Shown here piece after piece: positions 44,443 through 63,743 of a stretch of DNA of 64,000 nucleotides. Below the pieces are notes generated by a model, which was given only the letters and a program-made list of their open reading frames with translations, was not told the DNA's origin and ran no database searches. The stretch is from Cryptosporangium phraense (GTDB lineage Bacteria; Actinomycetota; Actinomycetes; Mycobacteriales; Cryptosporangiaceae). Numbering within the stretch: position 1 is the first letter of the stretch; each line of letters starts with the position of its first letter. The DNA lies in the NCBI RefSeq assembly GCF_006912135.1, contig NZ_VIRS01000034.1:1-64000 (forward strand), read 5' to 3'. A program made the position numbers and the translations under genes.

Positions 44443-45153
44443 CTACGTCAGGCCCCGCGCGACCGCGGCGAGGAACCCGGTGGCGGTGCGGTCGTCCACG
44501 GTCAGCGGGTCGGCGGAGAGGGTGAGGTGGGCGATCGTGCGGATGGCCAGGACCTCGCCGTCCGGGGTGGGCACCGCCGTCGGGCGGCGGGCCGGGGCGG
44601 CCAGGGTGAGGATCGGGCCGGTCCAGCCCGGGATCGCCGGGGCGGCCAGCACGGCGTGCGGCTCCTCGATCACGAGCAGCGTGCGGGCCGGGTCGAGCTT
44701 GGCCTTGGCCGGGTCGGCCAGCAGCTTCCCGATGCCGTCGACGTTCAGGTCACGGACGCCCGGCAGGTAGGCCAGGTGCCCGTCGATCCGGGTCGCGATC
44801 GGGTATTCGCCCAGCTCACCGGCGTCCACAACCGACTTGAGCAGGACCGCGAGACCGGCACCGGAGTCGGTGACGTCGGCCTCGACGGCGAAGAACGAGC
44901 GCGCCGCGCTCGCCACCGCGGGTTCCTCGACCACGGCGGGCTCCTCGACCACGGCCGGGTCCTCCGCGGCCGCGGAGGACGACCGCGACGCGGCCGCTTC
45001 GACGTCGGAGACGCGGATGCGCCCACCGATCCCGGTGCCGACGACGGTCGTCAGGTCGACGCCGGCCTCGGCGGCGAACGCGCGGACGCCGGGGGTCACC
45101 CACGACAGCGGCGGCGCATCGAACTCGGTGCTGAACAGGACGCCGTGCGGCAT
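44443..45153 (-). CDS. E2-like protein: E3-binding domain plus inactive acyltransferase domain
   Basis: Encodes 236 residues. Residues ~18-57 are a peripheral-subunit/E3-binding domain (TPGVRAFAAEAGVDLTTVVGTG, GRIRVSDVEAA). An Ala/Val/Glu-Pro linker with an 18-bp tandem repeat (VVEEPAVVEEPAV) follows, then a shortened 2-oxoacid-dehydrogenase catalytic fold. Where active E2 has DHRxxDG this protein has ADPLTVDD, so the catalytic His is gone. There is no lipoyl domain. It is coupled to lacI (TGATG) and probably partners the E1 alpha/beta pair at 57.5-59.4 kb. Confidence 0.8.
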   Translation of the reverse strand: MPHGVLFSTEFDAPPLSWVTPGVRAFAAEAGVDLTTVVGTGIGGRIRVSDVEAAASRSSSAAAEDPAVVEEPAVVEEPAVASAARSFFAVEADVTDSGAGLAVLLKSVVDAGELGEYPIATRIDGHLAYLPGVRDLNVDGIGKLLADPAKAKLDPARTLLVIEEPHAVLAAPAIPGWTGPILTLAAPARRPTAVPTPDGEVLAIRTIAHLTLSADPLTVDDRTATGFLAAVARGLT

Positions 45154-46181
45154 CAGAGAACTCCAGGGGGTGCGGTGGACTCGCGGAGCACCAGCTCCAT
45201 CGGGCCGTCGACGGTCTCGGCGACCGCGTCGTCGGGGTCGGTACTGGCCAGCCGCTCGACGCCTCGGCGGCCGAGCTCCTCCAGCGGCATCCGCACGGTC
45301 GTCAGCGCGGGTACCAGGTACTCGGCCAGCGGCAGGTCGTGCACCGCGACGATCGAGAGCTCGTCCGGGACGCGCACGCCGGCGCGGTAAGCGGCCCGCA
45401 ACGCACCGATCGCCGACGCCACGTTGGCGACGAACACCGCGGTGGGCCGGGGCGTGCGCCCGAGCAGCTCGGTCATCGCCTGGAAGCCGCCCTCGGCGGT
45501 GTAGTCGGCCCGGACCTCCAGCGCCGGGTCGGGCGCGCGGCCGTGCAGGCGCATCGCGGCCCGGTAGCCGCCGGCCCGCCGGGACGCGGTGTCGGAGCCG
45601 TCCGGGCCGGCCAGGTGCGCGATCCGCGTGTGACCGAGGCTGACGAGGTGCTCGACTGCCATCGTCGCCGCGCCCTCGTCGTCCAGAATGATGTGCCGGG
45701 TCGCGTCGGTCATGCTCCAGTTGAGCAGCAGCCAGGGCATCCGCGACGCCCGTAGGGCGTCGAGGGTGGCGGACGCGCGAACCCCGCCGGCCAGCAGCAG
45801 ACCGTCGACGCGGCCGTCGGCCAGCAGGTCCAGATAGGGCTTGGCCGAGCCGGCGACCCGGCCCGAGCCGGTGACCAGCACGCACTCCCGATCGGCGGCA
45901 GCGGCCTCGGCACCCTTGATGATCTCGGCGTACACCGGGTTCGCGTAGTCGGGGATGAACAGGCCGAACGTCCGGCTCAACCGGGTCCGCAGCGTGCGCG
46001 CGGCCGCGTTCGGCCGGTAGCCGAGCGTCTTCACCGAGGCCAGCACGCGCTCGCGGGTCTCCGGGCGGATGTTCAGGCCCGGGTCGTCGTTCATCACCCG
46101 CGAGATCACCGAGCGGTCGACGCCCGCGTGCGCGGCGACGTCGGCGAGGGTCACGCGTTTGGAAGGTAGCCGGTCGATCAC
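45153..46181 (-). CDS. LacI-family transcriptional regulator of the catabolic regulon
   Basis: Encodes 342 residues. The helix-turn-helix reads VTLADVAAHAGVDRSVISRVMN with hinge GYRPNAAARTLRT; the periplasmic-binding-protein-like effector domain follows (FGLFIPDYANPVYAEII). It is coupled to the Gfo/Idh gene (GTGA overlap) and to the E2-like gene. Four GTCAAmCGATTGmY sites in front of the catabolic blocks are its likely operators, including its own operon via 48206-48219. The effector sugar is unknown. Confidence 0.93.
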   Translation of the reverse strand: MIDRLPSKRVTLADVAAHAGVDRSVISRVMNDDPGLNIRPETRERVLASVKTLGYRPNAAARTLRTRLSRTFGLFIPDYANPVYAEIIKGAEAAAADRECVLVTGSGRVAGSAKPYLDLLADGRVDGLLLAGGVRASATLDALRASRMPWLLLNWSMTDATRHIILDDEGAATMAVEHLVSLGHTRIAHLAGPDGSDTASRRAGGYRAAMRLHGRAPDPALEVRADYTAEGGFQAMTELLGRTPRPTAVFVANVASAIGALRAAYRAGVRVPDELSIVAVHDLPLAEYLVPALTTVRMPLEELGRRGVERLASTDPDDAVAETVDGPMELVLRESTAPPGVL

Positions 46182-47263
46182 CGTGGGGATTCTTCCGGAG
46201 TCTGGGCCTCGCCCGTGGCCATCGAGCGATACAGAGCCTCGACGAGCGCGAGCGTGCCCAGATTGTCGCGCCCGGACGTCTCGGGCTCGGTGTCGGTGGC
46301 GATCGCCCGGAGCAGGGAGCCCATCGGGCCGGCGAACGCGTCGGGGATCCAGCGGCGGGTGACCGGGTAGTCGAGCCAGCCGTCGGTGTGTTTCTCCGAG
46401 TTGACCCTCAGGGTGTCCGGACGCCCGTGCGGGTAGTCGTAGAGCAGCCCGATCGTGCCCTTGATCGACCCCTCCGACCCGTCGATGCGGTATTCGGCCC
46501 GCGCGTCCCCGGTGCGGTTCTCGTGGTTGACGTGCAGGATCGCATGTTCACCGCCGGGAAAGCTCAGCGTGGTGGCCGTGCGCGTCTCGCCGACGACCTT
46601 CTGACCCGGCGTCCGAGAGCCGATCGCGTAGGCGCGGTTCGGATTGCCGAGCAGGGCCCGCACCGAGTCCAGGTAGTGGATCGAGTGGTACCAGATCTCG
46701 AGGTTCTCGAGTTCGGCCAGCCAGGCCCAGGTCGAGAAGTCCGTGACGATGGTGACGTTGAACTCGAACGCGGTGACCTCGCCGACCCAGCCGGCCCTGG
46801 CCATCGCGATCGCCGCGGCGATGCCTTCCTCGAAGCGCATCTGCTGGTTGACCGCGATCTTCCGGTTCGCCTGCTCGGCCGCGGCCACCATTCGGCGGGC
46901 GGTGGCGAGGTCCTCCGCGAAGGGCTTCTGGCACAGCAGATGCTTCCCGGCGTCCACGGCCCGGTGGACGATCGCCGGCTGGGCGCGGGCGGGCACCGCG
47001 ATGTCGACGACGTCGACCGGGCTGCTCAGCAATTCGTCGAGGCTCTGGTACACCGCCGGGATGCCATGGCGGGCGGCGACCTCGTGGGCGCGGTCCTGGT
47101 CGAGGTCGAAGATGCCGGCGACGTCGAGGCCGGCCCGCCGGTACGCGGGCAGGTGGGCGACGTCGACGATCGCACCGGCTCCGACGATCGCGATCGGCCG
47201 CTTGTGCTCCTCGGCGACGCGCAGATCCGTGGCCGCCGCGATGGCGGTGACTTCGTCGAGCAT
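46178..47263 (-). CDS. Gfo/Idh/MocA-family oxidoreductase
   Basis: Encodes 361 residues. The Rossmann motif is IAIVGAGAIVDVAHLPAY; the family EKP-type motif appears as CQKPFAED, and a C-terminal alpha/beta domain contains FEFNVTIV and HSIHYLDSVRALLG, with the His/Asp residues expected for catalysis. Family members oxidise sugars, inositols or cyclitols with NAD(P). It is transcribed with the amidohydrolase and lacI. Confidence 0.92.
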   Translation of the reverse strand: MLDEVTAIAAATDLRVAEEHKRPIAIVGAGAIVDVAHLPAYRRAGLDVAGIFDLDQDRAHEVAARHGIPAVYQSLDELLSSPVDVVDIAVPARAQPAIVHRAVDAGKHLLCQKPFAEDLATARRMVAAAEQANRKIAVNQQMRFEEGIAAAIAMARAGWVGEVTAFEFNVTIVTDFSTWAWLAELENLEIWYHSIHYLDSVRALLGNPNRAYAIGSRTPGQKVVGETRTATTLSFPGGEHAILHVNHENRTGDARAEYRIDGSEGSIKGTIGLLYDYPHGRPDTLRVNSEKHTDGWLDYPVTRRWIPDAFAGPMGSLLRAIATDTEPETSGRDNLGTLALVEALYRSMATGEAQTPEESPR

Positions 47264-47267
47264 GCGG

Positions 47268-47357
47268 GCTCCTTACGGGAAGCGGTAGAAGGTGCTCGCT
47301 CCTTACGGGAAGCGGTAGAAGGCGCTCGCTCCTTACGGGAAGCGGTAGAAGGCGCTC
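47268..47357. repeat. 30-bp tandem triplication of a gene end plus ribosome site
   Basis: Three 30-bp units (47268-47297, 47298-47327, 47328-47357) differ at one base. On the minus strand each unit encodes the amidohydrolase tail AFYRFP-stop followed by GGAGC. Only the distal unit is the true gene end; the proximal unit supplies the ribosome site of the Gfo/Idh gene. Confidence 0.92.
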
Positions 47358-48163
47358 GCGGTGCCGCCGAGGATCGCGGCGCGGTCTTCCGGGGCGATCA
47401 GCTGCCGGATCGCGTCCCACGTCCGTCGGTAGCCGCCGCCGAGCACCGAGACCGGCCAGTCGCTGCCCCACATCAGCCGGCCGGGCCCGAAGACCGCCAG
47501 CCCGTGGTCGACGTAACGGCGCAGATCGTCGGCGGTCCAGTCCGGCGCGGCGGCCGTGTCGAGGCCGGAGAGCTTCGCGTACACGTTCGGGTACTCGCCG
47601 GCCCGCGCGAGCAGGGTGGCCCAGGGCTGCCAGCCGTTCCCGGCGATCGGCGGCTTGGCCAGGTGGTCGATCACGATGCGCAGCTCCGGGAACGCCTCGG
47701 CCAGCGTGGGCACGTGCTCGAGGTGGCGGGGGATCGTCGCGATCTGGTCCCAGGTGAGGCCGTCCGCGGCGACGAGGCCGAGTGACTCCTGCACGGCCGG
47801 CCGGAGGATCCAGTCCGGGTCGGGCTCGTCGTGCACCTGGTGCCGCACGCCGACGTAGCGGGGGTCCTTGCCGTAGCTCGCGAGGGCCCGGGCGGTGGCT
47901 TCCGGGTCCAGCAGCGGCACCCAGCCCACGACCGCGGCGATCCGCGGGTGCGCGTCGGCCTGCGCGAGCATCGAGTCGGTGTCGGCCAGGCTCGGCTCGG
48001 CCTGGACCAGGACGGTGCGGTCGACGCCGCACTCGTCGAGCTGCGGCTCGAGCTCATCGAAGCCGAACGTGCGGTGGATCGGGCCGGCGTCCGGCGTCAG
48101 CCAGGCGTACTCGAGCGCGTCGATGTCCCAGAGATGTTGATGGGCGTCGACGATGAGGGGCAT
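47333..48163 (-). CDS. Amidohydrolase-2 family lactonase
   Basis: Encodes 276 residues. The metal-binding H-x-H (DAHQHLWD), later HQVHDEPD, IDHLAKP and the terminal MWGSDWPVS motif identify the amidohydrolase_2 family that includes L-fuconolactone and L-rhamnonolactone hydrolases. In this context lactone ring opening after sugar oxidation is likely. GGGAGTCACGC precedes the ATG at 48163. The gene end is triplicated downstream. Confidence 0.9.
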   Translation of the reverse strand: MPLIVDAHQHLWDIDALEYAWLTPDAGPIHRTFGFDELEPQLDECGVDRTVLVQAEPSLADTDSMLAQADAHPRIAAVVGWVPLLDPEATARALASYGKDPRYVGVRHQVHDEPDPDWILRPAVQESLGLVAADGLTWDQIATIPRHLEHVPTLAEAFPELRIVIDHLAKPPIAGNGWQPWATLLARAGEYPNVYAKLSGLDTAAAPDWTADDLRRYVDHGLAVFGPGRLMWGSDWPVSVLGGGYRRTWDAIRQLIAPEDRAAILGGTASAFYRFP

Positions 48164-48205: not shown

Positions 48206-48219
48206 GTCAAACGATTGAC
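48206..48219. promoter_or_regulatory. LacI operator site A
   Basis: GTCAAACGATTGAC, nearly palindromic with a central CG, lies between the divergent amidohydrolase operon and the solute-binding gene. It matches sites at 54868, 54916 and 59416. Confidence 0.82.
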
Positions 48220-48238
48220 CCGTCGCAAGGAGGCAGTG

Positions 48239-49375
48239 GTGCTCAGACTTCTCGGCCGTACCTTCGACGGCTTCGAGCGAGCGGTGGAGGCACAGGCGTC
48301 GGTGCCGGTGGCGGCGTCCTGGGTGGAGTTGCCGTCGCTGGAGCACGCGGTGCTGTCGTCGGACGCTCTGCTGGACGGCTCGGTGGACCTCGCGCTGGTC
48401 GTCAGCGACTGGCTGCCCGCGCTGATCGAGCAGGGCAAGGTCCTCGACCTCGCGCCCCGCCTGGCGGCGGCGCCGCCGCCGGACTGGCCGGACGGCTGGA
48501 GCCCGTCGATGCGTCTGCTCCAGACCCGTGGCGACCGGGTGTACGGCGTGCCGTACCACGACGGCCCGATGATGCTCCTGTACCGGCCAGACCTTTTTGC
48601 GGACGCCCGGGAGCAGGCCGGTTTCGCCGAGCGCGTCGGCTACCCGCTGGCGCCGCCGGCCTCGTGGGAGCAGTTCCTGGACGTGGCCCGGTGGTTCACC
48701 CGTCCGGGGCTGTACGGCACGGTGCTGGCCGGCCAGCCGGACGGGCACAACGACGTGTACGACTTCCTGCTGCAGCTGTGGAGCCGGGGCGGTGAGCTGT
48801 CGTCGCTGGCCGGCCCGGCCGCCGTGTCCGGCCTGGAGTTCCTGCGTCGGCTGCGCCGGGAGAGGCTCGTCGACCCGGCGTCGATGGAGTGGGACAGCGT
48901 CGCGTCCGGGGAGCACTTCGCGGCCGGCGAGGCGGCGCTGATGGTGAACTGGGCCGGGTACGCGGCGATGTGCGCGCCGGGCGCGGTCGCGTGCGCGCCG
49001 GTGCCGAACGGGGTGTCGCTGAACATCTACTGGGTGTGGGTGGTGGCCGCGGGGTCGGCCGCTCCGGGCCCGGCCTACGAGTTCCTGAAGCACCTCGCCT
49101 CGCCGGAGATGGACGTGATCACGTCGCTGTCCGGCGCGACCGGGGTACGGCTGTCCACCTGGCGGGACCCCCGGGTGCGGGCCCTCTCGCCGTACTACGA
49201 GGTGATCGAAGAGGTGCACCGCGGGGTGCTCAGCCCGCCGCCGGTCACCGACTGGCCGTCGGTGGCCGGTGTGCTGTCGTCGGCGATCCACGACGTCATG
49301 CGCGAGAGGGTGGACCCGGCGGCGGCCCTGGCGGCCGCGTCGGCCGAGATCGACGCGGTCGGGTGGCTCCGCTGA
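48239..49375 (+). CDS. Family 1 solute-binding protein without a signal peptide
   Basis: Encodes 378 residues. The fold is recognised by VYGVPYHDGPMMLLYRPDLF, ASWEQFLDVARWFTRPGLYG and FAAGEAALMVNWAGYAAM, as in carbohydrate-binding SBP_bac_1 proteins. The chain begins directly with mature-type sequence (VLRLLGRTFDG), with no signal peptide, lipobox or permease gene nearby. It may be a cytosolic ligand-binding protein or have lost export. AAGGAGG is 5 bp before GTG 48239; GTG 48236 is an alternative. Confidence 0.85.
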   Translation: MLRLLGRTFDGFERAVEAQASVPVAASWVELPSLEHAVLSSDALLDGSVDLALVVSDWLPALIEQGKVLDLAPRLAAAPPPDWPDGWSPSMRLLQTRGDRVYGVPYHDGPMMLLYRPDLFADAREQAGFAERVGYPLAPPASWEQFLDVARWFTRPGLYGTVLAGQPDGHNDVYDFLLQLWSRGGELSSLAGPAAVSGLEFLRRLRRERLVDPASMEWDSVASGEHFAAGEAALMVNWAGYAAMCAPGAVACAPVPNGVSLNIYWVWVVAAGSAAPGPAYEFLKHLASPEMDVITSLSGATGVRLSTWRDPRVRALSPYYEVIEEVHRGVLSPPPVTDWPSVAGVLSSAIHDVMRERVDPAAALAAASAEIDAVGWLR

Positions 49376-50347
49376 TCAGAAGCCGGCGACCGCGTGCGGG
49401 GCGTAGGGCTCCTCTAGCGCGCTCAGTTCGTCGGCGCTGAGTTCGACGTCGACGGCGGCCACGGCGTCGTCCAGATGCGACAGCTTGCTGGCCCCGATGA
49501 TCGGCGCGGACACCCCGGGCTTGGCCAACATCCAGGCCAGCGCGGCCTGCGCGCGGGGCACCCCGCGGGCGTCGGCGATCCGGGCCACCGCCTCGATCAC
49601 CGCGCGGTCGGCGTCGAGATCGTAGAGCCGGTTGCCGAACGCGTCGTTCTCGCTGCGGTTGGTGGTGGTCTCCGGATCGCGGGTCAGCCGGCCGCGGGCC
49701 AGCGGCGACCACGGGATGAGGCCGACGCCCTCGTCGACGCAGAGCGGGATCATCTCCCGCTCCTCCTCGCGGTTGAGCAGGTTGTAGTGGTTCTGCATGC
49801 TGACGAACGGCGTCCAGCCGTTCCGCTCCTGCACCCGCAGGTACTTCCCGAACTGCCAGGCCCACATCGAGCTGGCCCCGATGTACCGCGCCTTCCCGGC
49901 CTTGACGACGTCGTGCAGCGCCTCGGCCGTCTCCTCGATCGGCGTCACCGGGTCGAACCGGTGGATCTGGTAGAGGTCGACGTAGTCGGTGCCGAGGCGT
50001 CGCAGGCTGTGGTCGATCTCGCTGAGGATCGCCTTGCGCGACAGCCCGCCGCCGTTCGGGCCCTCGTGCATCCGGCCGTGGACCTTGGTGGCGAGCACGA
50101 TCTCGTCGCGGTTCGCGAAGTCGCCGAGCGCCTTGCCGACGATCTCCTCGCTGCTGCCGTCCGAGTACACGTTCGCGGTGTCGAAGAAGTTGATGCCGGA
50201 CTCGATCGCCTGCTTGATGAACGGGCGGCTCTCGTCCTCGGGCAGCGTCCACTCGTGGTTGCCGCGCTTCGGGTCGCCGTACGTCATGCACCCCAGGCAG
50301 ATCCGGGAGACCTCCAGGCCGGTGCGTCCCAGGCGGGTGTATTTCAT
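49376..50347 (-). CDS. Aldo/keto reductase (YajO-like)
   Basis: Encodes 323 residues. Catalytic residues occur in FFDTANVYSDG (Asp, Tyr), ATKVHG (Lys) and LYQIHRFD (His). The pattern matches YajO-type aldo/keto reductases, NADPH-dependent, acting on sugars or aldehydes. The ATG at 50347 overlaps the dgt stop (ATGA), so it is expressed with dgt rather than directly with the LacI regulon, and its stop codon abuts that of the convergent solute-binding gene. Confidence 0.93.
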   Translation of the reverse strand: MKYTRLGRTGLEVSRICLGCMTYGDPKRGNHEWTLPEDESRPFIKQAIESGINFFDTANVYSDGSSEEIVGKALGDFANRDEIVLATKVHGRMHEGPNGGGLSRKAILSEIDHSLRRLGTDYVDLYQIHRFDPVTPIEETAEALHDVVKAGKARYIGASSMWAWQFGKYLRVQERNGWTPFVSMQNHYNLLNREEEREMIPLCVDEGVGLIPWSPLARGRLTRDPETTTNRSENDAFGNRLYDLDADRAVIEAVARIADARGVPRAQAALAWMLAKPGVSAPIIGASKLSHLDDAVAAVDVELSADELSALEEPYAPHAVAGF

Positions 50348-53322: not shown

Positions 53323-53426
53323 CGCTGGGCCGCTGGGCCGCTGGGCCGCCGGGCCGCCGGACCGCCGGGCCGCCGGACCGCCGGGCCGCCGGACCGTCGG
53401 GCCGTCGGGCCGTCGGGCCGTCGGGC
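53323..53426. repeat. 8-bp tandem repeat, 13 copies
   Basis: Units of CGCTGGGC, CGCCGGGC/CGCCGGAC (alternating) and CGTCGGGC in blocks, showing successive rounds of expansion. The 8-bp unit shifts reading frame each copy. Confidence 0.93.
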
Positions 53427-53570
53427 CGTCGCGGCGGCTGCCCGCAGCCTGCGCTCGCCGTCGGCCGCATTTGCCGCGTCGGCCGTACTCGCATACTCGC
53501 CGCCCTGCTGCGCCTGCCGCGCCCGCCGCAACTGCCGGATCCGCCGCCCTACCCCGCCTAGCGCCCTGTC

Positions 53571-53655
53571 GTCCTCTCGCGCGTGCCGTCCTCTCGCGCG
53601 TGCCGTCCTCTCGCGCGTGCCGTCCTCTCGCGCGTGCCGTTCTCTCGCGCGTGCT
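53571..53655. repeat. 17-bp tandem repeat, 5 copies
   Basis: Unit GTCCTCTCGCGCGTGCC repeated at exact 17-bp spacing; the last copy has two base changes. A second three-copy block of the same unit lies at 53741-53791. Confidence 0.93.
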
Positions 53656-53740
53656 GCCCTGCCGGGCCTGCCGCGCGTGCCGCCCTGCCGGGCCTGCCGC
53701 AACTGCCGAATCCGCCGCCCTACCGCGCCTACCGCCGGTC

Positions 53741-54399: not shown

Positions 54400-54489
54400 G
54401 GGCTGCACGGGCTGCACGGGCTGCACGGGCTGCACGGGCTGCACGGGCTGCACGGGCTGCACGGGCTGCATGGGCTGCATGGGCTGCAC
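54400..54489. repeat. 9-bp tandem repeat GGGCTGCAC, 10 copies
   Basis: Ten units; copies 8 and 9 share a C-to-T change at the last base, evidence of unit-by-unit spread. Confidence 0.95.
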
Positions 54490-54507
54490 GGCTGCACCGC
54501 CTGCGCC

Positions 54508-54579
54508 GGCTGCACGGCTGCACGGCTGCACGGCTGCACGGCTGCACGGCTGCACGGCTGCACGGCTGCACGGCTGCAC
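54508..54579. repeat. 8-bp tandem repeat GGCTGCAC, 9 copies
   Basis: Nine perfect units, one base shorter than the preceding 9-bp unit, suggesting loss of one G created a new unit that then expanded. Confidence 0.95.
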
Positions 54580-54624
54580 CGCCTGCGCCGCCTGCGCCGC
54601 CTGCGCCGCCTGCGCCGCCTGCGC
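54580..54624. repeat. 9-bp tandem repeat CGCCTGCGC, 5 copies
   Basis: Five perfect units directly abutting the 8-bp array, followed by a further short run of GGCTGCAC units. Confidence 0.93.
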
Positions 54625-54867
54625 CGGCTGCACGGCTGCACGGCTGCACCGGCTGCAGCGGCCGCACGGGCCGTATCGGCCGCGCTGCCGCACCCGCCGC
54701 GCTCCCGTGCGTTCCGTGCCTGCCGCATCGAGCGCGCTGCCGCACTTGCCGCCCCTGGCGCGCTGCAACTGTCGCGCTCCCGCGTTCGTCGAATGTCGCA
54801 GGTCGGGGGTTGGTCGGGCGGGGTTGGGCGGGGTTGGGCGGTCGGTTGGGAGTGACAGGCCGTGTCA

Positions 54868-54881
54868 GTCAAACGATTGCT
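54868..54881. promoter_or_regulatory. LacI operator site B
   Basis: GTCAAACGATTGCT, 48 bp from site C, in the promoter of the SDR operon. Confidence 0.75.
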
Positions 54882-54915: not shown

Positions 54916-54929
54916 GTCAACCGATTGAC
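54916..54929. promoter_or_regulatory. LacI operator site C
   Basis: GTCAACCGATTGAC, ending 1 bp before the TGGAGG ribosome site of the SDR gene; the pair B/C could support looping or cooperative repression. Confidence 0.78.
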
Positions 54930-54940: not shown

Positions 54941-55975
54941 GTGGCCGTCGCCATCGATCTCAGCGGTCGTCGTGCGCTCGTCACCGGCGGCGCAGGCGGC
55001 CTCGGACTGGCGTGCGCCGAGGTGCTGCTCCAGGCCGGTGCGCGGGTCGTGCTCAGCGACCTTCCCGGGTCGAGGCTGACCGCCGCGGTCGAGGCCCTGT
55101 CAGCCAAACACGGCGCCACACCCGACTCCTCGCCCGGCGCAACGCCCCCCGCTTCGCCCCCCGCTTCGCCCCCCGCTTCGCCCCCCGCTTCGCCCCCCGC
55201 TTCGCCCGCCGGGCCCAGCACCCCTCCGAAGCCCAGCACCCCTCCGCTGCACAGCACCCCTTCGGGGCCCAGCACCCCTTCGGGGCCCGGCACCCCCTCG
55301 GGGGCCGGCACCCCCTCGGGGGCCAGCATCCCTTCGGGGCATGGCACCCCTTCGGGGACCGGCACTCCTCCGGTGTACGCCGCGCCCGCTGACCTGACTG
55401 CGGACGGCGCCCCGGCCGCGCTCGTCGAGACGGCCACCGACTACCTCGGCGGCCTCGACACGCTCGTCAACTGCGCCGGGATCATGGAGACGGTGCCGCT
55501 CCCGGACGTCACCGAGGACGCCTGGCGCCGGATCATCGACGTCAACCTCACCTCGACGTTCCTCCTGACACAAGCCGCCGCACGGGCCATGTCCCACGGC
55601 GCGATCGTCACCCTGGCCTCCGTGGCCGGGCGGTCCGGACGCCCGAACGCCGTGCACTACGCGGCCAGCAAGGCCGCCCTCCTGAGCCTGACCAAGTCGG
55701 CCGCGCTCGCGTACGGGCCGGCCATCCGCGTCAACGCGGTCTGCCCCGGCGTCTTCCTGACCCCGATGTGGGAGGAGATCATCGCCGACCGGGCCCGTCA
55801 GTTCGGCGACGGCGCCGGGGAGGAGTACCTGGCCCAGGTCAAGGCGGCGTGCGCGCTCGGGCGCGACGGCGACCCCGCCGAGCTGGCCTCCGTCGTGCTC
55901 TTCCTGGTGAGTGACCTTGCCTCGTTCGTTACCGGTCAAGCGGTCAACGTCGACGGCGGACTGGAGATGGACTGA
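54941..55975 (+). CDS. SDR oxidoreductase with in-frame repeat insertion
   Basis: Encodes 344 residues, about 90 more than the ~250 usual for the family. TGGAGGLG binds cofactor, NCAG is present, and the catalytic residues are Ser227, Tyr240 and Lys244. Residues ~65-145 are a Pro/Ser/Thr/Gly-rich insertion made by a 12-bp array and an 18-bp array (55151-55375), located between helix C and the next strand, a surface loop. NAD(P)-dependent oxidation of a sugar or polyol is likely. TGGAGG precedes the GTG; the stop overlaps the lyase ATG. Confidence 0.9.
55151..55375 (+). repeat. 12-bp x5 and 18-bp x9 arrays inside the SDR gene
   Basis: GCTTCGCCCCCC-type units at 55151-55210 encode PASP/SPPA repeats; CCCAGCACCCCTTCGGGG-type units at 55214-55375 encode STPSGP-like hexapeptides. 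Both unit lengths are multiples of three, so the frame is kept. Confidence 0.95.
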
Positions 55976-57510
55976 TGGTTGCTCCCACGCACGGACCGGC
56001 CTCCGTCACGGCGACGACGCCTACCGGCGCCGACCCCGCCGCGACGACGCCCACCGGCGCCGACCCCGCCGCGACGCCCGGCGCCCCCGCGGCAACGCCT
56101 ACCGGCGCCGCCCCCGCGACGACGCCCGCCCCCGCGACGACGACGCCTACCGGCGCCCGGCCCGGGCCGTTCCGGCTGCTGACCGCGCTCTACGCCGACA
56201 CCGCAATGGCCGAGATCTTCGGCGAAGCGGCCACCATCGACGGCTGGCTCCGGGCCGAACTCGCGCTCACCAGGGCCGAAGCACAGGTAGGCGTCGTGAC
56301 CACCGAGGACGCCGAGGCGATCGGCGCGATCACCGACCCCGAGCGCATCGACCGGGCCGAGCTCTGGGAGCAGGCCCGCAACGTCGGCTATCCGGTCCTG
56401 CCGCTGGTCCGGCAGCTCTCCGGCCAGCTCCCGGCCGGCCCGGACGGCCACGTCCACTGGGGAGCCACCACCCAGGACATCATGGACACCGGCCTGGTGC
56501 TCCAGCTCGTCGCGGCCGGCGACCGGATGATCGCGCTGCTCACCGATTTCGGCGACGCCCTCGCGGTCCAGACCGAGAAGCATCAGAACACGGTCACCGC
56601 GGCCCGCACCCACGCCCAGCAGGCCGTCCCGACGACGTTCGGCACCAAGCTCGCCGTCTACCTGGCCCAGGTCACCCGCGACCTGGAACGCGTCCGACGG
56701 GCCAGCTGGGAGGTCCGCACGCTCTCCCTCTACGGCGCCGGCGGCACCTCCGCGGCACTGGGAGACGACGCCGCCGAGGTCCGTCGCCGGATGGCCGCCG
56801 AGCTCCAGCTGTCCGTCGACGACATCCCGTGGCACGTCGCCCGCGACCGTCTGGTCGAGTTCGGCGGAGCGCTGGCCCTCGCCGCCGGCACCGCGGCGCG
56901 CATCGCCCGGGAGGTCGTCGACCTCTCGCGCACCGAGATCGCCGAGGTCCGCGAGGCCGACGGGCACCACCGGGGTGCGTCGTCGACGATGCCGCAGAAG
57001 GCCAACCCGATCTCGTCCGAGGCGATCCTCGGGTTCAGCACGTTCGCGGCGACGCTGCTCCCGGCCCTGCACCGGGCGCTCGAAGCCGGTCACGAGCGGG
57101 CCGCGGGCGAGTGGCAGGTCGAGTGGCTGGTACTGCCCGAGCTCGCCTGCTCCGCCGCGTCCGCCGTCGCCCTGGCCGCCGAGACCATCCGCGACCTGCG
57201 CGTCTTCGCGGACGTCATGCGCGCGAACCTGGACGCCGACGGCGGGCTGGTGCTGGCCGAGGCGTACATGTTCAAGCTGGCGCCGAAACTCGGACGTGAG
57301 CACGCCCACGACGTCGTCTACGACGCCGCCCGCGCGGCTCGGCAAAACGGCGAGAAGCTCACCGAGGCGATCGGGAACGCCGCCGCCGCCGATCCGAAGC
57401 TCGCCGCCGCGACGAGAACCCCGATCGGCCCCGAGCAGTACCTCGGCGAGACCGACCGGATCTGCGAGGCCGCCCTCACCCGATGGGCGACCGCGAAGGA
57501 GAACGCATGA
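55975..57510 (+). CDS. Fumarase/adenylosuccinate lyase-superfamily lyase (PcaB-like)
   Basis: Encodes 511 residues. The superfamily signature SSTMPQKANPI (around residues 335-346) and THAQQAVPTTFG and TTQDIMDTG segments are conserved, closest in style to 3-carboxymuconate cycloisomerase and adenylosuccinate lyase relatives. The first ~62 residues are Ala/Thr/Pro repeats (TPTGADPAAT units of 30 bp) absent from the family. In this cluster it may perform beta-elimination on a sugar-acid intermediate. It is coupled to SDR (TGATG) and E1 alpha (ATGA). Confidence 0.9.
   Translation: MVAPTHGPASVTATTPTGADPAATTPTGADPAATPGAPAATPTGAAPATTPAPATTTPTGARPGPFRLLTALYADTAMAEIFGEAATIDGWLRAELALTRAEAQVGVVTTEDAEAIGAITDPERIDRAELWEQARNVGYPVLPLVRQLSGQLPAGPDGHVHWGATTQDIMDTGLVLQLVAAGDRMIALLTDFGDALAVQTEKHQNTVTAARTHAQQAVPTTFGTKLAVYLAQVTRDLERVRRASWEVRTLSLYGAGGTSAALGDDAAEVRRRMAAELQLSVDDIPWHVARDRLVEFGGALALAAGTAARIAREVVDLSRTEIAEVREADGHHRGASSTMPQKANPISSEAILGFSTFAATLLPALHRALEAGHERAAGEWQVEWLVLPELACSAASAVALAAETIRDLRVFADVMRANLDADGGLVLAEAYMFKLAPKLGREHAHDVVYDAARAARQNGEKLTEAIGNAAAADPKLAAATRTPIGPEQYLGETDRICEAALTRWATAKENA
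56011..56165 (+). repeat. 30-bp repeats at the lyase N-terminus
   Basis: Two near-identical 30-bp units (56011-56040, 56041-56070) encode ATTPTGADPA, followed by decayed copies up to about 56165. Confidence 0.85.
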
Positions 57511-58451
57511 GCACGCTCCTCGACGACCTCCACCAGATGTGGCGGAGCCGCCTGCTGGAGGAGAAGATCCGCGACCTCCGGCTGGCCGGCGAGATCCAGG
57601 GCTCGGTCCACCTCTCGATCGGCCAGGAAGCCGGCCCGGTCGGCGCCTGCTCAGTCCTCGGTCCCGACGACGCCCTGTTCGCGACCTACCGCGGTCACAA
57701 CTGGGCCGTCGCCCGCGGCGTCCCCGTCGAAGGGATCCTGGCCGAGCTCCTCGGTCGGGAAACCGGAGTGAACGGCGGACGCGGCGGATCGGCCTACTTC
57801 TCCGACGTGGCGCACGGGTTCCACGGCGAGAACTCGATCGTCGGCGCGGGAGCGCCGCTCGCGGTCGGCGCGGCTCTGGCCGGGAAGTACGACGGGAGCA
57901 ACCGGGTCGCGCTCACGGTCTTCGGCGACGGCGCGATGAACCAGGGCGCGGTGCACGAGTCGATGAACTTCGCCGCCGCGCTCGACCTGCCGGTGATCTT
58001 CGTCTGCGAGAACAACGGCTGGTCGGAGCTCACCCCGATCGACGACATGGTCCGCAACCCCATCCTGGCCGAGCGCGCTCGCGCCTACGGCATGCTCGGC
58101 GAACGCATCGACGGCAACGACCCGGCCGTGGTCCGGGACCGGGTCGGCGACGCGATCGAGGCGGCCCGCGAAGGCGGCGGCCCGGCGCTGCTCGAGCTGA
58201 TGACCCAGCGGCTGGTCGGCCACTACATCGGCGACGCCGAGCAGTACCGGCGCCCGGGCGAACTCGAAGCCGCGAAGGAAAAGGAGCCGATCGCCGTGGC
58301 CAAGCGCAAGCTCGCGGCAGCCGGCGTCCCGCAGAACCAGATCGACGACGCCGAAGCCAGAGCGCGCGAAGAGATCGACGCCGCCGCCGCCACAGCACAA
58401 GCGGCCCCGCTCGCCGACCCCAGCACGGTCAAGGAGCACCTCTATGCCTAA
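57507..58451 (+). CDS. TPP-dependent 2-oxoacid/acetoin dehydrogenase E1 alpha subunit
   Basis: Encodes 314 residues. The thiamine diphosphate motif GDGAMNQG (140-147) ending ENN (168-170) is intact, as is YRGHNWAVARGV near the phosphorylation-loop region of E1 alpha. The size (~320) matches acetoin-dehydrogenase-type E1 subunits. It should decarboxylate or cleave a 2-oxo or diketone substrate with E1 beta. AAGGAGAACGC precedes the ATG. No lipoyl-bearing E2 or E3 gene is in the window. Confidence 0.94.
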   Translation: MSTLLDDLHQMWRSRLLEEKIRDLRLAGEIQGSVHLSIGQEAGPVGACSVLGPDDALFATYRGHNWAVARGVPVEGILAELLGRETGVNGGRGGSAYFSDVAHGFHGENSIVGAGAPLAVGAALAGKYDGSNRVALTVFGDGAMNQGAVHESMNFAAALDLPVIFVCENNGWSELTPIDDMVRNPILAERARAYGMLGERIDGNDPAVVRDRVGDAIEAAREGGGPALLELMTQRLVGHYIGDAEQYRRPGELEAAKEKEPIAVAKRKLAAAGVPQNQIDDAEARAREEIDAAAATAQAAPLADPSTVKEHLYA

Positions 58452-59406
58452 GTACTCCTTCGCCGAGGCCGCGAACGCCGCACTCCGCCGCGTCCTCGAC
58501 GAGATCCCCGAGACTCTCCTCTACGGCGAGGACGTCGGCGTGCCCGGCGGTGTCCACGGCGTCTCCAAAGGCCTGCACAAGACGTTCGGCGACCGGGTGT
58601 TCGACACCCCGATCAGCGAGTCGGCGATCCTCGGCTCCGCGGTCGGTGCGGCGATGTTCGGCCGCCGGCCGATCGTCGAGATCATGTGGTCGGACTTCTT
58701 CCTGGTCGCGCTGGACCAGGTCGTCAACCAGGCGGCGAACGTCCGCTACGTCTCGAACGGGACGATGACCGCGCCGCTGACGATCCGCACCCAGCAGGGC
58801 AACTCGCCCGGCGCGGTGGCCCAGCACTCGCAGAACCTCGAGGCGTTCTTCCTGCACACGCCCGGTCTGCGGGTGTGCATGCCGAGCACTCAGCAGGACG
58901 CCTACGACCTGCTGCTCGCCGCGGTGCACTGCGACGACCCGACGATCGTCATCGAGAACCGCACGCTGTACCACGGGGCCAAGGCCGAAGTCGAGATCAA
59001 CGAAGGAGTCCAGCCCATCGGCGGGCTCCGCCGACGCCGGACCGGCGACAAGGCCACCGTCGTCAGCTGGGGCGCGATCACCCACAAGGTGCTCGAGGCC
59101 GCAAAAGACGAAGACGTCGATGTCCTCGAGACCGTCTGGCTCAACCCGTTCCCGTGGGACGAGGTGCTCGACTCGGTGCGTCGGACCCGCCGGCTGGCGG
59201 TCGTCCACGAGGCGAACCGGACCGGCGGCTTCGGTGCCGAGGTCATCACCCGGGTCGCCGAGGCCGGCATCGAGCTGACCGCCCCGCCGGTCCGGCTGGC
59301 CGCTCCCGATCTGCGGCTACCCGCCGCCCCGGTGCTGGCCGCGGCGGTCATCCCGGACACCGCCACGATCGCGGCCGCGATCGCCGACCTGGCGACCCGC
59401 GGCTGA
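58444..59406 (+). CDS. TPP-dependent 2-oxoacid/acetoin dehydrogenase E1 beta subunit
   Basis: Encodes 320 residues. Characteristic stretches include LLYGEDVGVPGGVHGVSKGL, FDTPISESAILGSAVGAAM, RTQQGNSPGAVAQHSQ and a transketolase C-terminal domain. It forms the alpha2beta2 E1 with the preceding gene, overlapping it by 8 bp. It closes the SDR-lyase-E1 operon; the next block begins after operator D. Confidence 0.94.
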   Translation: MPKYSFAEAANAALRRVLDEIPETLLYGEDVGVPGGVHGVSKGLHKTFGDRVFDTPISESAILGSAVGAAMFGRRPIVEIMWSDFFLVALDQVVNQAANVRYVSNGTMTAPLTIRTQQGNSPGAVAQHSQNLEAFFLHTPGLRVCMPSTQQDAYDLLLAAVHCDDPTIVIENRTLYHGAKAEVEINEGVQPIGGLRRRRTGDKATVVSWGAITHKVLEAAKDEDVDVLETVWLNPFPWDEVLDSVRRTRRLAVVHEANRTGGFGAEVITRVAEAGIELTAPPVRLAAPDLRLPAAPVLAAAVIPDTATIAAAIADLATRG

Positions 59407-59415: not shown

Positions 59416-59429
59416 AGCAATCGTTTGAC
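59416..59429. promoter_or_regulatory. LacI operator site D
   Basis: AGCAATCGTTTGAC, the reverse complement of GTCAAACGATTGCT, 61 bp before the sugar-binding protein start. Confidence 0.78.
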
Positions 59430-59489: not shown

Positions 59490-60494
59490 ATGCGACGAGG
59501 CCTGGGCCTGAAGAGACCAACCACGTTCCTGGCCCTCGCGGCGGCCATCACGCTCGCCGCCGCCGGCTGTGCCAGCAAGCCCGACGACTCCACCAGCAGC
59601 GCCTCCGGCAGCGACAAAGGCTCCTGCAAGATCGCGATCGACAACGGTTCCGGCACCGGCTTCCCGTTCCCGAACGCCGGCGCGCAGGGCATCGAGGAGG
59701 CCGCCAAGTCCCTCGGCTGCACGATCATCGCGAACCTGGACGGCAAGAACGACGTCCAGACCGAAGCGGCGAACGTGCAGAACATCATCGCGCAGAAGCC
59801 CGACGGCGTCGTGATGATCCCGGCGAACGCGGCCGAGGCCGCGAAGTTCGTCGACCAGTTCTCGGCGGCCGGCATCAAGGTCGTCAGCTACCACAGCATC
59901 ATCGGCGCCGACCGCAAGATCGACGACGTCTACCCGAAGCTGTCCGCGCTGGTCATCGAGAACGAGACCGGGGCCGGTGAGCAGACCGGGCAGGCCATGC
60001 TCAAGGCGCTGCCCAACGGCGGGAACGTCGCGGTGATCATCGGCGCGCCCGGCTACGCCGAGAACACGCTGCGGGTCGAGAAGTTCAAGACCGCGACGGC
60101 GGGCAAGTTCACGATCGTCGCCGAGCAGCCCGGCGGATGGGTCGCCGACCAGGGCCAGTCGGCCTGCGCCAGCATCCTGAACGCCCACCCCGACCTGGTC
60201 GGGATCTACGCGATCTCCGACGACATGGGCGTCGGCTGCCAGAAGGCCGTCGCGGCGGCGAAGTCCAAGGCGCTGGTGTTCGGCGTCGGTGGCTCGAAGC
60301 TCGGCGTCGAGGCGATCAAGACCGGCGGCCTGACCGGCACGATCTGCTACAAGCCGGTCGACGGGGGCAAGAAGGCCGCCGAGGAGCTCAAGAAGGCGAT
60401 CGACGACGAGAACTACGGCACCGCCAAGCTGGTCTTCTACGACACGCCGTCGATCGACAAGTCCAACGTCGCCGACTGCGACCCGCAATGGTGA
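59490..60494 (+). CDS. Sugar ABC transporter substrate-binding lipoprotein (CUT2)
   Basis: Encodes 334 residues. The signal peptide ends in a lipobox LAAAGC (about Cys27). The mature part is a RbsB-like periplasmic binding fold: IIAQKPDGVVMIPANAAEAAKFVDQF and later GIYAISDDMGVGCQKAV. It delivers the substrate to the RbsA/RbsC-type transporter encoded next. AGGAAAGG precedes the ATG. Operator D lies in its promoter region. Confidence 0.94.
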   Translation: MRRGLGLKRPTTFLALAAAITLAAAGCASKPDDSTSSASGSDKGSCKIAIDNGSGTGFPFPNAGAQGIEEAAKSLGCTIIANLDGKNDVQTEAANVQNIIAQKPDGVVMIPANAAEAAKFVDQFSAAGIKVVSYHSIIGADRKIDDVYPKLSALVIENETGAGEQTGQAMLKALPNGGNVAVIIGAPGYAENTLRVEKFKTATAGKFTIVAEQPGGWVADQGQSACASILNAHPDLVGIYAISDDMGVGCQKAVAAAKSKALVFGVGGSKLGVEAIKTGGLTGTICYKPVDGGKKAAEELKKAIDDENYGTAKLVFYDTPSIDKSNVADCDPQW

Positions 60495-60505: not shown

Positions 60506-62020
60506 ATGGGTGAACTATTGGCGGTACACGGAGTCTCCAAGCGGTTCCCGAACGGGACGGTCGCGCTGCGGGACGTCGACCTCACGATTGCTCGTGGCTC
60601 GATCCACGGGCTCGTGGGCGCCAACGGCGCGGGCAAGTCCACCCTGTTCAAGATCATCGCCGGCGCTCACGAGCCGAGCGCGGGCGAGTTGATCTGGCAA
60701 GGCAGCGCGGTCGACTGGTCGAATCCGGCGGCTCCCCGGGCCGCCGGAGTGGCCACGATGTACCAGCACATCCCGCTGGTACCGACGCTGTCCGTGCTCG
60801 AGAACGTGTTCCTCGGCGAGATGTCGGGGCTGTTCCGGCGCGGCCGGCTGATGGCCCGGTACGAGGCGCTCTGCGAGCGCTTCGGCTACCGGCCCGACCC
60901 GAACGCGCTCGTCGGCGATCTGCCGATCGGCGAGCGTCAGATGGTGGCGGTCGCGCAGGCGCTGGCCGCCGGCGCGACGCTCATCTGCATGGACGAGCCG
61001 ACCGCCTCGATGGCCCGGGCCGAGGTCGACCTCCTGTTCCGGGCGGTCCACCGGCTGCGCGAGTCCGAGGGCACCTCGTTCGTCTTCTGCTCCCACTTCC
61101 TCGACCAGGTGTTGGAGCTCACCGACGAGGTGTCGGTGCTCCGCGACGGCCGGATGGTGTTCACCGGCCCGACGTCGGAGTTGGACGAGGAGCGGCTGGT
61201 CGACCTGATGGTCGGCCGGAAGCTGTCGGCGATGGAGAACGTCCGGATGGCTCCGGTTGCACCGGAGGCGGCGCCGGTCCTCGAGGCGATCAACCTCCGG
61301 TCCCCTTCGGGCGTGGACGACGTGAGCCTCACCGTTCGGGCCGGGGAAGTGATCGGGCTGGCGGGCATGCTCGGCTCGGGCCGCTCGGAGATCCTCGAGG
61401 CGATCTTCGGCGCCGACAAGCGCTGCGAGGGAACCGTCCGCATCAAGGGCGAGGACGTCGGAAAACGCGTCGACCAGCGGGTGAAGGCCGGTCTCGCCCT
61501 GGTGCCGGAAGACCGCAACCGGCAGGGGCTGATCGGCGCCTGGGAGATCTGGCGGAACACGACGCTGCCGGACGTGGCCCAGCTCAGCCTGCGCCGGATC
61601 ATCCCGGACGCGAACGCCGAGCACGAGCGGGCGGAGAAGGGCGTCGCGGACCTCAAGGTCCGCACGCCGTCGGTCTCGACGCCGGTGAGCGCGCTGTCCG
61701 GCGGCAACGCGCAGAAGGTCGTGTTCGCGAAGTGGATGTACGGCGACGCGTGCGCCTACCTGCTCGACGAGCCGACGGTCGGCGTCGACGTCGGGGCGAA
61801 GGCCGACATCCTCGAGCTGGTCCGGGGCTTCGCCCGGGCCGGCAACGCGGTGGTGATCGTCAGCTCCGAGTTCGAGGAGCTGCTCGCCGTCGCCCAGCGC
61901 ATCCTGGTCGTCCGCGGCGGACGCATCGTCGCCGAGCGGAACTCCCAGGACACCGATGAAGCCGAGCTGCTCGCGCTGTCGAGCGGGCTGGGCACCACTG
62001 ATCTCGGACGGACCGCATGA
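60506..62020 (+). CDS. Sugar ABC transporter ATP-binding protein (RbsA type, two NBDs)
   Basis: Encodes 504 residues in two fused nucleotide-binding domains. NBD1 has GANGAGKST, an atypical signature LPIGERQMVAVAQAL, CMDEPTASM and CSHFLDQV. NBD2 has the degenerate P-loop GMLGSGRSEI, LSGGNAQKVVFAKW and LLDEPTVGVDVG, as in RbsA/XylG/MglA. It energises the CUT2 sugar importer and overlaps the permease start by four bases. Confidence 0.95.
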   Translation: MGELLAVHGVSKRFPNGTVALRDVDLTIARGSIHGLVGANGAGKSTLFKIIAGAHEPSAGELIWQGSAVDWSNPAAPRAAGVATMYQHIPLVPTLSVLENVFLGEMSGLFRRGRLMARYEALCERFGYRPDPNALVGDLPIGERQMVAVAQALAAGATLICMDEPTASMARAEVDLLFRAVHRLRESEGTSFVFCSHFLDQVLELTDEVSVLRDGRMVFTGPTSELDEERLVDLMVGRKLSAMENVRMAPVAPEAAPVLEAINLRSPSGVDDVSLTVRAGEVIGLAGMLGSGRSEILEAIFGADKRCEGTVRIKGEDVGKRVDQRVKAGLALVPEDRNRQGLIGAWEIWRNTTLPDVAQLSLRRIIPDANAEHERAEKGVADLKVRTPSVSTPVSALSGGNAQKVVFAKWMYGDACAYLLDEPTVGVDVGAKADILELVRGFARAGNAVVIVSSEFEELLAVAQRILVVRGGRIVAERNSQDTDEAELLALSSGLGTTDLGRTA

Positions 62021-63279
62021 TCACTCTCAAAGACCGGCTCGCGCCGTTCCGCCTCCAGCGCGCCGGCGTCGTCTACGCGTTCGCGCTGATCCTGGTGGTG
62101 TTCACCTCGGCCGCGGCCGGCACCGACCGGCCGTTCTACCTGTCGGCGCTGAATAGCGCGAACATCCTGGACCAGACCGCCCAGGTCGGCATCCTCGCCG
62201 TGTTCATGACGATCTGCCTGATCAGCGGCAACTTCGACCTGTCGATCGGGGCCACCGGGGCGCTGGCCGCGGGCGTGACGCTGACCGTGATCAACCACGG
62301 CTGGGGCCTGGGTACGGCGCTGCTGCTGGGGCTGCTGACCGGCATCGCGATGGGGCTCTTCAACGGCGTGTTCGTGCAGTACGTCGGCGTGAACGCGTTC
62401 ATCGTCACGCTCGGGACGATGACCGGCATCCGCGGGTTGCTGTTCATCCTCACCGACGGCCGGTCGATCCAGACCACCGACACCGGGCTCGCGAACCTGT
62501 TCACCGGTGACTGGCCGGTGAACCTCAAGATCTGGGCCGCGGTCGTCGGGCTGGTCTTCGTCGGGGTCGGCGTGTGGTCGCTCCGCCGGGAGCGCGCCGG
62601 TCGGGTCACCGACGGACAGGCGTACTGGTACGTCGGGGCCGGTGCGGTGCTGGCCGTGGTCTCGCTGCTCTTCTTCCCGACGTACTGGGCGCTGTCCAAG
62701 CAGGTCTGGATCTTCCTGCTCATCGTGCTGATCGCCTGGGCGGTTCTGAAGTTCACGGTGGTGGGGCGGCGGCTGTACGCGGTGGGCGGCAACGTCGAGG
62801 CGGCGCGGCTGTCGGGTATCCGGGTCGCGCGCTACAAGGTCATGCCGTTCGTCCTGAACGGGCTGTTCGCCGCGCTGGTCGGCATCCTCTACGCGTCGCG
62901 GTTCTCGGCGATCAACCCGCAGGCGCTGACCGGCATCGAGCTCACCGTGCTCGCGGCCGCGATCCTCGGCGGGACGTCGCTGTTCGGCGGGGCCGGCAAC
63001 GTGCTCAAGTCGGTGATCGGGGCGCTCATCCTGTTCGTGCTGGCCAACGGCTTCGGCGTGCTGAACCTCGGGGCCAACTACCAGGACCTGATCAAGGGCG
63101 TCGTCATCATCGGCGCGGCCACGATCTACGTGCTGGCCGAGAAGCGCGGCGGTCGCAAGAAGCTCACCGCCGCCGATGTCCCGGCCGTCACCGCGCCCGC
63201 TGAGGCCTCCGGTGGTCCGGTCGTCACGGCCGATTCGGACGCCGCGGCGCGCGCCGGTTCCGGGTCGGCGCGCTCATGA
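62017..63279 (+). CDS. Sugar ABC transporter permease (RbsC/XylH type)
   Basis: Encodes 420 residues with roughly ten hydrophobic segments. FDLSIGATGALAAGV and the conserved late stretch ALTGIELTVLAAAILGGTSLFGG are typical. The extra ~60 residues in the middle (WSLRRERAGRVTDGQAYWYVG) resemble xylose-type XylH permeases. A hydrophilic Ala-rich tail follows KKLTAADVPA. It overlaps both neighbours by four bases (ATGA). Confidence 0.94.
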   Translation: MITLKDRLAPFRLQRAGVVYAFALILVVFTSAAAGTDRPFYLSALNSANILDQTAQVGILAVFMTICLISGNFDLSIGATGALAAGVTLTVINHGWGLGTALLLGLLTGIAMGLFNGVFVQYVGVNAFIVTLGTMTGIRGLLFILTDGRSIQTTDTGLANLFTGDWPVNLKIWAAVVGLVFVGVGVWSLRRERAGRVTDGQAYWYVGAGAVLAVVSLLFFPTYWALSKQVWIFLLIVLIAWAVLKFTVVGRRLYAVGGNVEAARLSGIRVARYKVMPFVLNGLFAALVGILYASRFSAINPQALTGIELTVLAAAILGGTSLFGGAGNVLKSVIGALILFVLANGFGVLNLGANYQDLIKGVVIIGAATIYVLAEKRGGRKKLTAADVPAVTAPAEASGGPVVTADSDAAARAGSGSARS

Positions 63280-63743
63280 GCGGCCTGACCGGGCTGTGGC
63301 ATTTCAGCTTCACGGTGTCGGACCTGGACGCGTCGATCCGGTTCTACCGTGACCTGCTCGGCATGGTGCTGGTGCACGAGCAGCGCCAGGACAACGACTA
63401 CACGCGCCGGCTGGTCGGCTACCCCGACGCCGACCTCCGGGTCGCGCAGCTGGCCGTGCCGCCGGCGTCGTCGACGAACTCGTCGCACGACCTGGAGCTG
63501 GTGCAGTACCTGTCGCCGGCGGCGGCCCCGACCGACCCGGAGCGCAAGCGCGCCGGAGCCGCCCACCTGGCGTTCACGACCGACGACGCAGTGGGTACGT
63601 ACGAGCGCCTCCGGGCCGCGGGCGTCGAGTTCGTGTCGCCGCCGAACGAGATCACGGCCGGGGTGAATCGGGGTGGGTACACCTGCTATTTCTTCGACCC
63701 CGACCGGGTGACGCTGGAACTGGTCCAGCCCCCGAGGCGCTGA
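63276..63743 (+). CDS. VOC/glyoxalase-family protein
   Basis: Encodes 155 residues. Two beta-alpha-beta-beta-beta units are recognisable: WHFSFTVSDLDASIRFYRDLLGM and AHLAFTTDDAVGTYERLRAAGVEF, ending YFFDPDRVTLELVQPP. The metal ligand positions His9, Glu (LELVQ) and His/Glu in the second half are plausible. It may be an epimerase, lyase or dioxygenase acting in the sugar pathway. It is the last gene of the importer operon. Confidence 0.9.
   Translation: MSGLTGLWHFSFTVSDLDASIRFYRDLLGMVLVHEQRQDNDYTRRLVGYPDADLRVAQLAVPPASSTNSSHDLELVQYLSPAAAPTDPERKRAGAAHLAFTTDDAVGTYERLRAAGVEFVSPPNEITAGVNRGGYTCYFFDPDRVTLELVQPPRR

Follow-up and report, generated by a model that had tools for sequence, protein, structure and literature searches.

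The closest described counterparts of the system reported here are the non-phosphorylative L-fucose pathway of Xanthomonas campestris and Burkholderia multivorans, Route III of Herbaspirillum huttiense, the RhaR regulon of Actinomycetales and, for two of its enzymes, the E1 alpha and beta subunits of acetoin and pyruvate dehydrogenases. We analysed a 64,000-nucleotide stretch of Cryptosporangium phraense (contig NZ_VIRS01000034.1, positions 1 to 64,000; hereafter the window), in which operator-like sites accompany separate blocks of genes for a LacI-family regulator, a CUT2 sugar importer and a set of putative catabolic enzymes. Judged from the letters and from comparison with relatives, these blocks probably form one LacI regulon through which an aldose is taken up and oxidised without phosphorylation; a sugar of the L-fucose/L-galactose type is the likeliest substrate.

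The likeness to the L-fucose pathway lies in the enzyme types, namely an aldose dehydrogenase, a COG3618 lactonase and a short-chain dehydrogenase/reductase (SDR), and in a RhaM-family mutarotase found in two relatives of the window set. The differences are the proposed first enzyme, a Gfo/Idh protein, the LacI operators, and the absence of matches to FucD and FAH in the LacI-bearing loci, where a PcaB-like lyase, E1 alpha/beta and a VOC protein are found instead. Route III (PMC6336799) likewise follows an aldonate route and then uses an SDR-type dehydrogenase, but cleavage there falls to an FAH-family hydrolase, whereas we propose an E1 dependent on thiamine pyrophosphate (TPP). The RhaR regulon, as described in PMC3870299, also places palindromic sites for a LacI regulator over deoxyhexose uptake and catabolic genes, but it serves L-rhamnose. 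The acetoin and pyruvate dehydrogenase subunits belong to the same families as the E1 proteins of the window, which keep the TPP motif, but the window set is without a lipoyl E2 and its E1 alpha and beta score under the curated NCBIfam cut-offs. The first-pass annotation of this DNA had not recognised the enzyme combination as a described pathway, and the literature is consistent with that: our searches, from which subscription journals were mostly absent so that a description may exist elsewhere, returned no title on this gene set, and a 2026 review counts two characterised bacterial L-fucose routes, the words thiamine and Gfo being absent from its text (PMC13406643). An acidimicrobial isolate has an ordinary FucD route, according to PMC12263773.

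Operator-like sites and their conservation in relatives

Within the window, the motif GTCAAMCGATTGMY is matched exactly at 48206 (+), 54868 (+), 54916 (+) and 59416 (-) and at no fifth place, just as the first-pass annotation had it; 100 dinucleotide-shuffled controls gave no match. All four fall within 11.2 kb, and the two upstream of the SDR gene are spaced 48 nt apart. Across the organism's own genome (8.46 Mb in 87 contigs) the exact palindrome GTCAAnCGnTTGAC occurs in two places only, 48206 and 54916, both inside the window, and the looser form GTCAANCGNTTGMY in five, the four window sites and position 74820 of another contig (C5). The latter adjoins an FAD-oxidoreductase-like frame and another frame and was set aside as probably a chance match. 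Two counts weigh against specificity: the loose form is not intrinsically rare, with seven strand hits against five for its reversed-pattern control, and GTCAAnCGnTTGAC at one mismatch is found in 18 places against seven for its control, mostly outside the window. Because the control of the loose form is nearly as frequent as the form itself, the case for specificity rests on clustering and on conservation in relatives.

Related loci were collected with an E1 alpha search, from which the best 80 of 430 relatives were taken, and five plasmid loci were added (85 loci in all). Loci were cut at about 20 kb and their genes called by a crude frame-composition caller together with tblastn, a procedure that short or divergent genes can escape. 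Thirty-four loci, from 19 actinobacterial genera according to the record titles, carry a LacI orthologue (>45% identity); they are not independent, seven being from Nonomuraea. With at most one mismatch allowed over 12 fixed positions, a site is present in 33 of these 34 loci, compared with 3 of the 51 that have no LacI orthologue; of those three, L023 has the same cluster on a short contig, L080 holds a related set, and L061 has neither. The lone LacI-bearing locus without a site, L036, has an altered recognition segment in its LacI (VDISLVSR) and an altered palindrome, TTCAAACGTTTGAA, ahead of the importer. The five plasmid loci have the E1 but no site at one mismatch or fewer. Among 12 whole genomes, GTCAAWCGWTTGAM was found at one to four places in 11, and its reversed control in none. 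Closer to home, GTCAAWCGWTTGAC was not found in any of the four family relatives scanned, and the best match to the PcaB-like lyase was only 38-40% in three of them, with none at 1e-60 in the fourth, so the cluster looks accessory in the genus.

The gene set is conserved along with the sites. Eleven genes form one run in 11 loci (L015, L016, L017, L019, L020, L021, L025, L027, L032, L039 and L067), always in the order SDR, PcaB-like lyase, E1 alpha, E1 beta, binding protein, ATPase, permease, VOC, amidohydrolase, Gfo/Idh and LacI, and all eleven are present in a different order in Nocardioides (L036) and Aeromicrobium (L037). A second architecture, found in Actinoplanes, Paractinoplanes, Amycolatopsis, Asanoa, Kineosporia and others, has SDR-E1 alpha-E1 beta-VOC-LacI or a divergent PcaB/E1 alpha pair, with a family-1 solute-binding protein (SBP1) facing Gfo/Idh in several cases. 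Taking the window with 36 loci (the 34 LacI-bearing ones, L023 and L080), 64 of 71 sites adjoin the start of a cluster gene: SDR 25, SBP1 12, the CUT2 binding protein (SBP2) 11, PcaB 11, E1 alpha 10, Gfo 9 and few others, where a site was assigned to a gene if it lay no more than 330 nt ahead of the start or 90 nt into the gene, and could count for two divergent genes. The seven unassigned sites are 54868 in the window, 16524 in L037, 13233 and 13267 in L049, and 2682, 5705 and 5749 in L056. A site internal to the run, ahead of the importer, is common to ten loci, the window included.

We thus find a LacI protein together with central-CG palindromes before co-located genes, and both are kept in orthologous loci. 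This footprinting by sequence conservation strongly supports the earlier proposal of one regulon over the scattered blocks, which we regard as very probably real, and the LacI protein presumably binds the palindromes. Were the motif a product of chance beside unrelated neighbours, its loose occurrences elsewhere and the 18 one-mismatch places would be easily understood, but gene order, sites and LacI would hardly be kept together across 19 genera, and we consider this explanation extremely improbable. Four unlinked sites in other genomes were examined. In Microbispora (L147) one of them is paired with a further site and lies ahead of a GH95-like gene, another (L146) adjoins a pectinesterase/GDSL gene, and a third (L148) is at the start of, or within, a beta-helix protein frame; the fourth (L145), possibly a chance match, adjoins genes of TetR and P450 type and is a point against the proposed regulon.

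Proposed import and oxidation, and a possible substrate

In the working that we propose, the LacI protein would repress from GTCAAnCGnTTGAC palindromes before the amidohydrolase/SBP1 pair, the SDR gene and the importer, and binding of the sugar or one of its derivatives would end the repression. The CUT2 system would import the sugar, Gfo/Idh would oxidise C1 to give a lactone, and the amidohydrolase would open the lactone to the aldonate, as families and neighbours suggest. The PcaB-like lyase would eliminate water and the SDR would oxidise a hydroxyl, in one order or the other, and E1 alpha/beta may then cleave the resulting 2-oxo acid or hydroxyketone, replacing the FAH hydrolase or aldolase of the described routes. 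The importer has its full complement of a Peripla_BP_4 binding protein, a two-domain ATPase and a BPD_transp_2 permease. Given the families of the Gfo/Idh protein and the COG3618-type amidohydrolase, oxidation of an aldose and opening of its lactone are likely, and we assign an oxidative, non-phosphorylative sugar pathway with good confidence.

Several features together suggest a substrate of the L-fucose/L-galactose type, which we rate as moderately likely: the fuconolactonase-like hydrolase, RhaM-family mutarotases inside the gene set of L036 and L037, GH95-like genes (in 7 of the 85 loci; directly preceded by a site in L016, L020, L037 and L056, and also at the unlinked site of L147) and a Kineosporia operon (L150), in which the exact operator precedes genes for a lactonase and for an L-fuconate dehydratase that scores 587 bits against 2hne. 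Other observations weigh against it. The window amidohydrolase scores 172 bits on an L-fucono-lactonase model whose curated NCBIfam cut-off is 400; lactonases that neighbour FucD or FAH reach similar values (176.5 and 175.9 bits). Its tree (26 rows) mixes operator-linked with FucD-linked forms and does not place the window protein firmly. The GH95 domain matches exceed the cut-off of 27 but are low (39-53 bits), the L016 piece matches DUF5703_N only, and a search of the window genome with a GH95-like query gave no match. In Kineosporia, the fuconate operon carries a LacI of its own next to the site. The Gfo/Idh most resembles structure 5uhw, which we take to be a D-apionate enzyme.

The regulon may be the same while the sugar is another one, for example D-arabinose, L-rhamnose or D-apiose. 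The organism keeps a separate cluster of FucD, CUT2 importer, aldo/keto reductase and lactonase elsewhere in its genome (L164, on C10), without the operator; this FucD match (61%) lies outside the window set, close FucD relatives occur in 16 of 20 genomes searched, and the sugar may therefore not be L-fucose. The 5uhw resemblance points the same way, as do the mutarotase family of L036 and L037, which is named for L-rhamnose, and the activity of L-fucose dehydrogenases on D-arabinose as well, reported in PMC6336799. The operator ahead of the Kineosporia L-fuconate dehydratase and the GH95-like genes behind operators speak against a different sugar, and we see this alternative as a real possibility that falls somewhat short of likely. 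A D-apiose pathway in particular was rejected, the likeness to 5uhw being the sole point in its favour.

Two neighbouring genes may be recorded here. A 'putative cyclase' gene (PF04199, scanned in L040) adjoins VOC in L040, L044, L045 and L049; the stretches fetched for these four loci showed no amidohydrolase, and the protein may be a substitute lactonase there. An aldehyde:ferredoxin oxidoreductase gene stands next to the cluster in 8 of the 85 loci, mostly of Nonomuraea (L017, 6004-7791; L021, L023, L024, L025, L028, L031 and L044), and mostly lies directly ahead of the SDR operator.

The proposed late steps and two unexpected proteins

Elimination by the PcaB-like lyase combined with TPP-dependent cleavage is chemically sensible and, as an assignment from families, plausible. 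The lyase falls below the curated cut-offs of its nearest models (292 against 355.75 bits for TIGR02426, 368 against 595 for PRK09053), and it was rejected on that score as a true beta-ketoadipate enzyme (3-carboxy-cis,cis-muconate cycloisomerase). Its SSxMPxK catalytic loop is intact in all 31 PcaB-like sequences kept, one of 32 having been removed by an identity/length filter. We know of no sugar-acid dehydratase in the fumarase superfamily, and a literature search for one found no paper. The TPP motif of E1 alpha is intact in 86 of 86 sequences, and the protein matches pyruvate and branched-chain E1; compared with solved structures, the SDR of L016 is nearest to a putative acetoin(diacetyl) reductase (154 bits), with glucose dehydrogenase at 149 bits.

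Two further proteins of the set are unusual. SBP1 matches family-1 solute-binding proteins, its profile being closest to the maltose/trehalose type, and in all 11 orthologues, judged by eye, it begins at the first conserved strand without a leader, so that it should remain in the cytosol. The other, called E2-like in the first-pass annotation, does have an E3-binding domain in Pfam but matches neither a lipoyl nor a catalytic domain, and we refer to it as a rump E2. Its core is recognisable by profile only (95%), and the DHRxxDG motif is lost in all three sequences compared. When used as a query of its own genome it found itself and three further places, all of them occupied by true E2 genes.

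Whether the lyase is the sugar-acid dehydratase has two readings. A separate dehydratase may make the 2-keto-3-deoxy acid, and PcaB would then catalyse a subsequent step or use a different acid. In favour of this, enolase-family genes go with the set in Kineosporia, where FucD sits behind the same operator, and in the Acidimicrobiaceae contig L080, where PcaB occurs together with an SMP-30 lactonase and the beginning of such a gene, and close FucD relatives are encoded elsewhere in most of the genomes searched. The enolase-family genes make it less straightforward to take PcaB for the sugar-acid dehydratase, which is only one of the two readings. Import, oxidation and lactone opening fit the families. 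On the other side, a FucD query matched 2 of the 85 loci (L082 and L086, at 27%) and no LacI-bearing locus, altronate-dehydratase-type and other dehydratase families lying outside that search, and 4 of the 20 genomes (those of L032, L036, L037 and L039) carry the full set without a close FucD, which favours PcaB as the first dehydratase. We lean slightly towards the separate dehydratase.

For cleavage, an FAH query matched 3 of the 85 loci (L054, L074 and L086) and no LacI-bearing locus within the fetched stretches, aldolases not being searched. The E1 pair could instead work in a normal 2-oxo acid dehydrogenase complex, with E2 and E3 borrowed and the rump E2 as adaptor. The retained E3-binding domain, the seven E2 catalytic domains encoded elsewhere in the genome, and a Rhodococcus plasmid (L014) with a complete E2 next to a TPP gene matching both E1 subunits are consistent with this, but no lipoyl or catalytic E2 was matched in the LacI-bearing loci and rump E2 counterparts follow LacI in only two of them (L016 and L027); we treat the borrowed complex as a tentative option. 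The most far-reaching reading would be a third terminal route of non-phosphorylative sugar oxidation, with a sugar-acid lyase of the fumarase superfamily (the PcaB-like protein) and a stand-alone TPP E1 alpha/beta that cleaves the oxidised acid, while SBP1, in the cytosol, and a rump E2 devoid of catalysis would assist; taken as a whole this seems unlikely.

Variants of these late genes are seen elsewhere. On the Rhodococcus WB1 plasmid the complete lipoyl E2 is fused to a muconolactone-isomerase domain (L014, 12009-13703), a domain that is a stand-alone protein in several relatives of the window cluster. In a Paracoccaceae contig (L072, 7327-8259) a 3-hydroxyacyl-CoA-dehydrogenase-type protein follows PcaB-E1 alpha-E1 beta, and the SDR of the set was not found there. 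Burkholderiales loci (L051, L052, L054, L057-L060, L063-L066 and L070) hold close E1 alpha/beta relatives in a different gene setting; their neighbours, judged by eye, resemble genes for a Rieske oxygenase, an aldolase of the HpcH/HpaI type and a regulator of the IclR type.

Organisation of the window and significance

The window set (Table 1) is split into two separated groups, compared with the single run of eleven related loci. Leftward from 48163 run the amidohydrolase, Gfo/Idh, LacI and rump E2 genes, matching the order after VOC in L016 and L027. SBP1 runs rightward from the shared operator-like site at 48206, mirroring its position facing Gfo/Idh in the second architecture; the families named in the first-pass annotation are all present, and SBP1, part of the system in relatives, was missing from its list. 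The SDR-to-VOC run goes rightward from 54941, with its internal site ahead of the importer.

Table 1. Genes and operator-like sites of the window set
Feature	Positions	Strand	Basis
Rump E2, E3-binding domain and degenerate E2-like core	44443..45153	-	Pfam match, profile comparison
LacI-family regulator	45153..46181	-	domain and family-model matches
Gfo/Idh/MocA oxidoreductase, proposed aldose 1-dehydrogenase	46178..47263	-	family matches; function from family
COG3618-type amidohydrolase, proposed aldonolactonase	47333..48163	-	family matches
Operator-like site GTCAAACGATTGAC, amidohydrolase/SBP1 intergenic	48206..48219	+	sequence match
SBP1, leaderless family-1 solute-binding-fold protein	48236..49375	+	domain match, orthologue alignment
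Operator-like site GTCAAACGATTGCT, upper of SDR pair, upstream of SDR	54868..54881	+	sequence match
Operator-like site GTCAACCGATTGAC, 12 nt upstream of SDR start	54916..54929	+	
SDR-family dehydrogenase, repeat-coded insertion of ~85 residues	54941..55975	+	domain match, alignment
PcaB-like lyase, fumarase/aspartase superfamily, repeat-coded N-terminal extension	55975..57510	+	domain/family matches, alignment
TPP-dependent E1 alpha	57507..58451	+	domain/family matches, TPP motif
TPP-dependent E1 beta	58444..59406	+	domain/family matches
Operator-like site GTCAAACGATTGCT, between E1 beta and importer	59416..59429	-	
SBP2, CUT2 sugar-binding protein	59490..60494	+	domain match
CUT2 ATPase	60506..62020	+	domain match
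CUT2 permease	62017..63279	+	domain match
VOC-superfamily protein	63276..63743	+	domain/family matches

Genes between the two blocks include HD-domain (dGTPase-like), lipid-kinase-like and DUF2786 genes. An aldo/keto reductase gene (49376-50347) was rejected as a member of the regulon, its query having matched L033 only (1e-12), plus a gene of L048 in a looser search. Dense GC-rich tandem repeats occupy 53323-54700, ahead of the SDR promoter, and 55143-55373 and 56011-56158; read in frame, they account for the SDR residues that are not present in nine relatives aligned, and for a PcaB N-terminus about 57 residues longer than in L015, L016 and L027. Farther left, on the minus strand (38838-41555), a protein looks, by eye, like a serine/threonine kinase with an extracellular peptide-binding domain after it.

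With a single repressor and a single operator common to 34 actinobacterial loci, an entire sugar pathway that is still uncharacterised becomes open to direct testing. The proposed pathway would bring enzymes of aromatic and of acetoin/pyruvate type into sugar-acid breakdown, and it would give a metabolic setting to two unusual proteins, the solute-binding protein that lacks a leader and the E2 whose catalytic motif is gone. Its solution would yield a further route for sugar acids, the genes of which are at present annotated with unrelated functions.

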